Part shown: positions 5,851 through 30,366 of the stretch, piece by piece
How the letters are laid out: every line of letters begins with the position of its first letter
Position numbering within the stretch: the first letter of the stretch is position 1
NCBI GenBank assembly: GCA_009699605.1
Contig: WLNW01000016.1
Location: 1 to 33,440 of the forward strand
Direction of reading: 5' to 3'
Source of the DNA: Actinomycetota bacterium
GTDB lineage: Bacteria > Actinomycetota > Acidimicrobiia > Acidimicrobiales > WLNW01
Length of the DNA: 33,440 nt
Made by a program: the position numbers and the translations under genes
Notes under the pieces: model-generated
The model's input: the letters and a program-made list of their open reading frames with translations, nothing else
Databases searched by the model: none
Told to the model about the DNA's origin: nothing

Positions 5851-5946
5851 TGTGAGTTCTTCCGTCTCGGGTTCCGTGCCTTCGAGTCTACGGTCACCAC
5901 GGCGGTGGACCCGCGCAAGGCGGCGCGACGGGCGTAACGTGCCGCC

Positions 5947-6723
5947 GTGCGAATCGCGACGTGGAACGTCAACTCCCTCGGTGTGCGCCTGGGCCGCGTC
6001 GAGTCATGGCTGGCTGACTTCCAGCCGGATGTGCTGTGCATCCAGGAGACGAAGCTCGCCGATGATGCCTTCCCCGCACTGACCTTCCAGGCCCTCGGCT
6101 ACGAGTCGTTCCATCACGGGCAGGGCCAGTGGAACGGTGTCGCGATTCTTTCCCGAGTGGGCATCGAGGATCCGCAGGTGGGGTTTGCCGATGGCGGCGA
6201 TGCCGATCCCGAGGCGCGTGCCGTGTGGGCCACATGTGGTGGCGTGCGGGTCGCAAGCTTGTACGTGCCCAACGGACGCTCCCTCGACAACGACCACTAC
6301 CAGTACAAGCTCCGCTGGCTCGAACGCCTCCGCGTGCACCTGGCCACCTCGTGCGCGCCCACCGACGAGGTGTGCGTGGTCGGCGACTTCAATATCGCCC
6401 CCGATGATCGCGACGTCTGGGACCTCGCGAAGTTCGAAGGGGCCACGCACGTGAGCCAGGCTGAACGCGCTGCGCTCGGCGAGCTTCTCCAATGGGGCAT
6501 GACCGACGTGTTCCGCGCCAAGTACGTCGAAGACGGGCTGTATTCATGGTGGGACTACCGCGGTGGCAGCTTCCACAAACGCCAGGGTCTGCGCATCGAT
6601 CTCGTCCTGGCGACCGCGCCGCTCGCGGCACGCCTCGAGCACACTTTGATCGATCGCAGCGCGCGCAAGGGCGAGACGCCCAGCGATCATGCACCGGTCA
6701 TCGCGGACTTCGGCCCGCGCTGA
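5947..6723 (+). CDS. xth: Exodeoxyribonuclease III / AP endonuclease
   Basis: A 258-residue protein of the exonuclease III (EEP) family. The order of motifs is complete: ATWNVNSLGVR (Asn7, Asn9), IQETK with metal-binding Glu34, YVPNG, GDFNIAP with the catalytic Asp/Asn pair, and the terminal SDHAPVIADF with the catalytic Asp-His. Family members cleave DNA 5' to abasic sites and remove 3' blocking groups during base-excision repair. The start is GTG at 5947; the methionine-equivalent lies directly before the first conserved strand, as usual. It is divergent from kgd and converges on the uvrD2-type gene with about 200 bases between the stops. Confidence 0.95.
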   Translation: MRIATWNVNSLGVRLGRVESWLADFQPDVLCIQETKLADDAFPALTFQALGYESFHHGQGQWNGVAILSRVGIEDPQVGFADGGDADPEARAVWATCGGVRVASLYVPNGRSLDNDHYQYKLRWLERLRVHLATSCAPTDEVCVVGDFNIAPDDRDVWDLAKFEGATHVSQAERAALGELLQWGMTDVFRAKYVEDGLYSWWDYRGGSFHKRQGLRIDLVLATAPLAARLEHTLIDRSARKGETPSDHAPVIADFGPR

Positions 6724-28980: not shown

Positions 28981-29496
28981 TCAGCCCGCGGTCGGCGTGC
29001 CCGGATAGGCAGGCGGGTCACCCGCGGCGGGCACGTTCGGGCGTGACCAGCTCGTGAGCCGGGTCAGGTCCTCGCACAGCGCCCGCCACTCCTCGGGTAC
29101 CCATCCTTCGGCTGCGCCGAGCAGCGAGCCATCCTGGCGCACGACGACGAGGGCAGGAAGCACGGTGAGCGAAAGGCTCTTGACGACCGCCCGATCGGGA
29201 TCAGCGAAGGCGAGGAACTCGTCGGCCAGCGACCCGAGGAACTGCAACGATCCGGCCGCGTCGGCGGTGGCCAGGAACGCAACGCGGCAATCGGCACCGG
29301 CGTAGTTCTCGAGGACGCGCTGCGCCGTCTTGAGGATCCACGCGCTCTCATGGGTGTATGGATCGACGACGACCAGGACGAGCGGGAACGTCGTGAGCCA
29401 ATTCCCGAAGGGACGCGCTTCGCCGCGAACTGACGCGAGCTCCACGTCAATCGAAGGTGCCGTTGCCACGACCGCGAACCGTAGCGCACCGGCCAT
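28981..29496 (-). CDS. Thioredoxin-fold protein without the CxxC motif
   Basis: A 171-residue protein with thioredoxin-like order: a first strand LVLVVVDPYTHESAW where CxxC would follow the strand, then a helix, CRVAFLATADAAG, and SLTVLPALVVVRQDGSLL, where the Pro after VL is the cis-Pro of the fold and a following VxxDG turn is typical. The redox Cys pair is missing (one Cys at DCRVAF), so it is not a standard oxidoreductase; it may be a binding or structural protein. The ATG at 29496 is used; GTG at 29469 is an alternative. A six-base stem (28974-28979 with 28985-28990) surrounds the stop codon. Confidence 0.75.
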   Translation of the reverse strand: MAGALRFAVVATAPSIDVELASVRGEARPFGNWLTTFPLVLVVVDPYTHESAWILKTAQRVLENYAGADCRVAFLATADAAGSLQFLGSLADEFLAFADPDRAVVKSLSLTVLPALVVVRQDGSLLGAAEGWVPEEWRALCEDLTRLTSWSRPNVPAAGDPPAYPGTPTAG

Positions 29497-29523
29497 CGTG
29501 TGGGACGAACTGGGCGGTCCCTC

Positions 29524-29561
29524 TGCACGCCTCGACGCAACCGGTAGCGTCGAGGCGTGCA
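29524..29561. promoter_or_regulatory. 38-bp near-perfect palindrome over the start codon of the eIF-2B-like gene
   Basis: The sequence from 29524 to 29561 is palindromic with a single mismatched pair (29539 and 29546). Arms of 15 bases (29524-29538 and 29547-29561) flank an eight-base centre that itself contains ACCGGT. The right arm covers the GTG start at 29557-29559. The left edge is 27 bases from the start of the divergent thioredoxin-fold gene. It could be a binding site for a dimeric or tetrameric regulator of the pair, or form an mRNA hairpin that hides the start codon. Confidence 0.75.
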
Positions 29562-30366
29562 CCCCATCGAACGGCTTCGCTACGTGGCCCGGGCGAGCGG
29601 TGTGTCCCACGCACTCGCCGTGCGAGAGAGCGCGTCGGCCATGCGGTCGTTCGTCCGCGAGCCGCACGCGCTCGTCACCGCGTGTCGCCGCATGATCGAC
29701 CGCCAGCCGGCGATCGCGCCCCTGTGGTGGCTCGGTGCGCGGTTGCTCACCGCACCCGATCCCGCAGTCGAGATCGAGCGGGTCCTCGCGGAGCTCGCCG
29801 ATGACTCCACCGTGCGTGAGCTTGAGTTTGCGGTGCCCGCCAACTCGTCGGTGTGCGTGATCGGCTGGCCCGACCTGGTAGGCGAGGCGTTGCTCCGCCG
29901 GGGCGACCTCCGCGTGCTCGTCGTCGATGTCCGCCGCGAGGGCTCGGGGTTCGTAGCGCGACTCATGCAGGCCGACGTCGACTGCGACGACGTCCCCGTC
30001 GAAGGTATGGCGCAGGCCATTGCTGCGAGCGATCTGGTGATCCTCGAGGCGTCGGCGGCCTGCCCCACCGAGGTGCTCGCGGTCTCGGGCTCCTACGCCG
30101 CCGCGGTCATCGCCCGGCGGCTCGAGGTCCCCGTGTGGCTCGGGATGGGTGTCGGGCGCCTGCTCCCCGCCAACATGTATGCGGCGCTCGTCGAACGGGC
30201 CGGTCTCGACAACGAGCCGTGGCATCAGGACAACGAACGCCTGCCGGCCGACCTCGTCGATGTCGTTATCGGCAGTGCCGGCGTACGCGATGCGGCGGTG
30301 GCCCTGCGCGACGTCACGTGTCCGGTCGCCCCAGAGCTCATGAAGGACCGCAGAGACATCGACTGA
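29557..30366 (+). CDS. eIF-2B-alpha-like (IF-2B/MtnA superfamily) protein
   Basis: A 269-residue protein. The C-terminal two thirds resemble the Rossmann-like fold of the eIF-2B alpha/beta/delta and methylthioribose-1-phosphate isomerase superfamily: SSVCVIGWPDLVGEALL, LRVLVVDVRREGSGFVARL, then AIAASDLVILEASAACPTEV, AVIARRLEVPVWLGMGVGR. The Cys and Asp that act in the MtnA isomerase are not clearly found, so isomerase activity is uncertain. The start is GTG at 29557, inside the palindrome; only a poor ribosome binding site (GAGG one base away) is present, so a later start cannot be excluded. It is divergent from the thioredoxin-fold gene and converges on the acyl-CoA dehydrogenase gene. Confidence 0.75.
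   Translation: MHPIERLRYVARASGVSHALAVRESASAMRSFVREPHALVTACRRMIDRQPAIAPLWWLGARLLTAPDPAVEIERVLAELADDSTVRELEFAVPANSSVCVIGWPDLVGEALLRRGDLRVLVVDVRREGSGFVARLMQADVDCDDVPVEGMAQAIAASDLVILEASAACPTEVLAVSGSYAAAVIARRLEVPVWLGMGVGRLLPANMYAALVERAGLDNEPWHQDNERLPADLVDVVIGSAGVRDAAVALRDVTCPVAPELMKDRRDID

Follow-up and report, generated by a model that had tools for sequence, protein, structure and literature searches.

A 38-bp palindrome over a predicted leaderless start codon in an actinobacterial genome as a possible mirror copy of the promoter

A palindrome of 38 bp covers the start codon GTG 29557 of an eIF-2B-like gene in the window, i.e. the whole analysed stretch of 33,440 nucleotides, and we lean towards explaining it as a leaderless promoter that was copied in inverted orientation by template switching, with no need of a present function; both how the copy arose and that it has no function are what we infer here. 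We consider an accident of mutation more probable than a switch common to the eIF-2B-like gene and the divergent thioredoxin-fold-like gene, because one half of the palindrome is a conserved promoter with its start codon and the second looks like a mirror copy of recent date. A start codon can thus be overlain by a striking palindrome that represents a conserved promoter and its mirror copy, and not an operator. The comparison with homologues furthermore corrected the start of the neighbouring gene. The positions of the relevant features are given in Table 1.

Table 1. Features at and around the palindrome in the window.
Feature	Position	Strand	Description
Whole palindrome	29524..29561	.	-33 to +5 relative to GTG 29557
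Left arm	29524..29542	-	Probable reverse-complement copy of the right arm, specific to the lineage
Right arm	29543..29561	+	Putative leaderless core promoter, conserved, with bases 1-5 of the eIF-2B-like gene
Candidate -10 element TAGCGT of the eIF-2B-like gene	29545..29550	+	TANNNT 6-9 nt before the start in 51/63 homologues
eIF-2B-like gene	29557..30366	+	269 aa, predicted leaderless
Mismatch pair A29539/A29546	29539..29546	.	A of TANNNT on the + strand; T on the mirrored - strand (TTGCGT)
Candidate -10 element TACGGT of the thioredoxin-fold-like gene	29478..29483	-	Homologue comparison and sequence
Thioredoxin-fold-like gene, revised start GTG 29469	28981..29469	-	TANNNT spacing in homologues

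The palindrome consists of TGCACGCCTCGACGCAACC followed directly by GGTAGCGTCGAGGCGTGCA. By inverted-repeat search the two arms of 19 nt each are joined with a spacer of 0 nt and are 95% complementary, with 18 of the 19 pairs matching, 15 perfect pairs in a row and A29539/A29546 as the sole mismatch pair. The initial annotation had described this structure as lying far beyond chance and covering the GTG, and both statements were borne out: by our own arithmetic, a G+C content of 67% gives an expectation of about 5e-5 palindromes of this kind for the window and of about 0.005 for the complete genome. When 1.30 Mb of the genome were imitated with a first-order Markov model, inverted repeats scored at most 13, while the palindrome scores 16. 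In the real genome 25 inverted repeats reach a score of at least 16 in 1.30 Mb, nearly all of them looped and many derived from one repeat family; the palindrome alone among them has no spacer and alone was flagged over a leaderless start. The genome is a draft in 277 contigs, of which 1.90 Mb (55%) were read in pieces. A search for the same palindrome near other genes, which the initial annotation had recommended, returned a single occurrence and no second copy when up to 3 mismatches were allowed across the assembly of 3.45 Mb. Likewise, no close copy of the paired half-sites was found elsewhere in the genome, where four looser pairs were detected, and the search for half-sites with up to 2 mismatches yielded 85 matches, the palindrome's own two arms counted in, versus 21 for the reversed pattern.

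The right arm carries, in this order, TAGCGT, CGAGGC and the GTG start codon, with 6 nt between the -10 element and the start. The homologues counted for this element in Table 1 are the 63 eIF-2B-like homologues with a usable start codon, the distance being taken from the last T of the motif, and across all 63 upstream stretches of 110 nt TANNNT turns up only 3 more times. A TANNNT motif with its last T 5-9 nt before the start codon, by which starts were classed as leaderless, precedes the eIF-2B-like gene; the gene looks leaderless, and its transcript is predicted to start at or near GTG 29557. This signature has been described for leaderless genes of Actinobacteria (PMC3160421, PMC3898074), and the promoter agrees with those promoters in a TANNNT at about -12 to -7, a start codon at or near the predicted transcription start and no recognisable -35 element, but differs from them in the near-perfect inverted promoter copy that stands directly upstream. 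At the locus in L003 (ggtagcgtcgtctcc followed by GTGCACCC), GGTAGCGTC...GTGCACCC is present without any palindrome. The family profile of the eIF-2B-like protein matches the eIF-2B beta structure 5b04 with an E value of 2e-4, and the single-sequence search against Pfam IF-2B stayed below the cut-off (E 0.0073).

The divergent thioredoxin-fold-like gene is predicted to be leaderless as well, with a -10 element of its own 40 bp outside the palindrome. Among 48 homologues, 31 have a TANNNT exactly 8 nt before the equivalent conserved start codon, and because the motif sits 8 nt before that codon, GTG 29469 and not ATG 29496 is probably the start. The distance of 27 bases between the palindrome and this gene in the initial annotation had been counted from ATG 29496 and has to be replaced by 54 bases from the revised start. 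Many relatives have the two genes in divergent orientation, spaced 16 bp to several hundred bp apart. The thioredoxin-fold assignment itself is weak (DsbE 3gl3, E 0.0034; Pfam Redoxin, E 0.015).

When homologous regions were compared in the same register, the right arm showed a mean agreement of 10.4/19 (best 16/19) and the left arm a mean of 8.0/19 (best 11/19). No inverted repeat with a score of at least 8 was present between -60 and +10 in any of 87 homologous upstream regions, for which shuffling predicts about 3, and many of these palindrome-free regions carry the same divergent gene pair. With up to 3 mismatches allowed, the whole palindrome was also not found in any of 396 other genomes of the order. 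Since the homologues match the right arm better and none has the palindrome, the left arm is most readily understood as a reverse-complement copy of the right arm that is specific to this lineage; that one arm appears ancestral and the other derived was judged on distant homologues only. The best homologue among 397 genomes of the order is 58% identical and none belongs to the same family, and a search of genome contigs for closer relatives gave 4 loci, all at most 48% identical. The mirrored -10 sequence TTGCGT on the - strand is predicted to be inactive, which would leave a one-way promoter, and a perfect mirror copy would have made a second -10 element firing into the divergent gene. The mismatch at the A of the -10 element, a single base, may be due to selection or to chance.

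The following course of events is proposed. The ancestral state would have been the conserved leaderless core promoter with its start codon, as in the right arm. DNA polymerase may have paused at the small central palindrome ACCGGT, which would have served as seed, and the paused polymerase may then have switched template and copied the nascent strand, thereby placing the left arm directly upstream. The eIF-2B-like gene would still be read from TAGCGT and the divergent gene from its own TACGGT. Template switching that perfects quasi-palindromes has been documented in E. coli (PMC7202029), and in yeast it has been linked to transcription (PMC3820800); the palindrome is like these mutations in that local mirror copying from a small seed would give a near-perfect inverted repeat, and unlike them in that the event is deduced here from distant homologues. 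In favour of a mirror copy is another start that has this geometry with an unrelated sequence (L106:9140-9178, see below), which fits a process and not the site of one protein. With 15 perfect pairs, either the origin must be recent or selection must have acted. Against a mirror copy counts the position exactly over the core promoter, where a repressor site would be placed as well.

Such a site would be an operator for the eIF-2B-like gene only, at which a dimeric or tetrameric repressor bound to both arms would occupy -33 to +5 and obstruct RNA polymerase. This explanation, which would account for a dyad exactly over the core promoter, for a palindrome far beyond chance and for perfect arms that suggest recent origin or selection, is nevertheless considered unlikely. 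The dyad is not conserved, as 0 of the 87 homologous promoter regions have it; no further copies stand at other promoters, although an operator with a single target is compatible with that; the Pfam scan detected no regulator-like DNA-binding domain among the six neighbouring genes; and the right arm is explained without an operator. The contact length of a typical dimeric regulator is exceeded by 15 consecutive perfect pairs. CIRCE/HrcA is a dimer operator covering a promoter, and the palindrome resembles it as a long dyad over the core promoter but has no spacer, another sequence, a single copy, no conservation and no linked regulator found. An operator common to both genes, as had been suggested from the initial annotation, does not hold up well because only the eIF-2B-like promoter is covered, while the -10 element of the other gene lies outside and none of the homologous regions is palindromic.

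A structural role of the palindrome was also weighed. If the promoter DNA formed a hairpin or cruciform, this would tune promoter opening or separate the two divergent promoters. Such a role agrees with the stable single-strand DNA fold (-21.7 kcal/mol, z -7.7) and with the second leaderless start of the same geometry and different sequence; it is rated improbable, as arms this long occur at only 2 of 439 candidate starts, the structure is not conserved in homologous regions and short cruciforms seldom extrude in vivo. It is very doubtful that longer transcripts form an RNA hairpin in which the start codon is concealed. The RNA of 29515-29600 does fold stably (-44.8 kcal/mol, z -3.3), but with two diverging genes predicted to be leaderless, whose transcript starts at 29557 and 29469 were placed from the -10 positions, no known transcript crosses the palindrome, and Rfam and terminator scans gave no match, a terminator-like T run being absent. 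A sigma-70 scan was empty as well. The hairpin blocking translation that had been envisaged earlier is unlikely for the same reason, because neither predicted leaderless mRNA would include the palindrome. With an RNA hairpin and a shared operator both unlikely, a mutational mirror copy is left, or an operator or structure serving one gene. Chance or an assembly artefact is hardly credible: the sequence does come from a draft and from the one genome of the species, but the number of such palindromes expected per genome is far below one, and an artefactual fold-back is not expected to stop at 38 bp with an internal mismatch.

Similar repeats were observed over other starts in this genome. At L106:9140-9178 (G000:C256:29140-29178) an inverted repeat with 15-bp arms extends from -33 to +6 over TAGGGT-GCGGCC-ATGAGC, where an O-methyltransferase-like gene appears to have its leaderless start; the repeat and the window palindrome have unrelated sequences. 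This repeat could instead be a terminator, as it lies just past the end of a same-strand upstream reading frame, and it is not visibly present in O-methyltransferase homologues. The common -33 to +6 geometry at a second leaderless start is suggestive only. Weaker repeats ending at +5 were seen at a purine nucleoside phosphorylase-like gene (L097) and at a divergent endonuclease III/acetyltransferase-like pair (L100:13731-13765), in which the leaderless -10 elements overlap and a symmetric CGATGTC stands at both starts. In the window, a further weaker repeat at 5914-5951 (score 8, -33 to +5) covers the start of an exonuclease III-like gene, which is leaderless with TAACGT and GTG 5947. The gene names at L097, L100 and window position 5947 were read by eye from the translations.

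Inverted repeats with a score of at least 15 were found at 2 of 439 candidate leaderless starts, versus 1 of 1756 shifted controls (scoring 23) and 0 of 2000 other start codons; at a score of at least 8 there was no clear excess over the 439 candidate starts compared with the controls. The enrichment at the extreme top rests on small numbers and is a lead, not a rule. That leaderless starts in this genome tend to undergo inverted duplication in a fixed frame (about -33 to +5/+6, centred near -14, with unrelated sequences), or exploit it, is regarded as quite unlikely. If true, it would point to RNA polymerase-guided template switching at the start site or to a structure-based control of leaderless promoters, and if the frame recurs at more starts, local inverted duplication would be tied to transcription initiation in bacteria.

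Other hairpin families were noticed in the genome (G000). A 48-bp hairpin, AACTGGTAGTTC-N24-GAACTACCAGTT, has 19 exact occurrences and 24 with 8-base ends, for example at L097:7794-7841, L106:2782-2829, L119:5645-5696 and L215:11404-11451; all are of one length although 16-40 had been permitted in the first search. Their inner stems vary and mostly stay complementary (CG, GC, AT and TA at one position), and the hairpins often lie near gene ends. None was found in 58 relatives, and the family is possibly a species-specific terminator or mobile repeat. A second family with the ends TTCTTCGGACA...TGTCCGAAGAA and partly different inner stems occurs at L131:2958-3006 and L191:998-1044, and two near-identical hairpins, CACTTCTGTCYGGTTTCGAC...GTCGAAACCRGACAGAAGTG, lie about 1 kb apart at L204:1589-1637 and L204:2606-2654.
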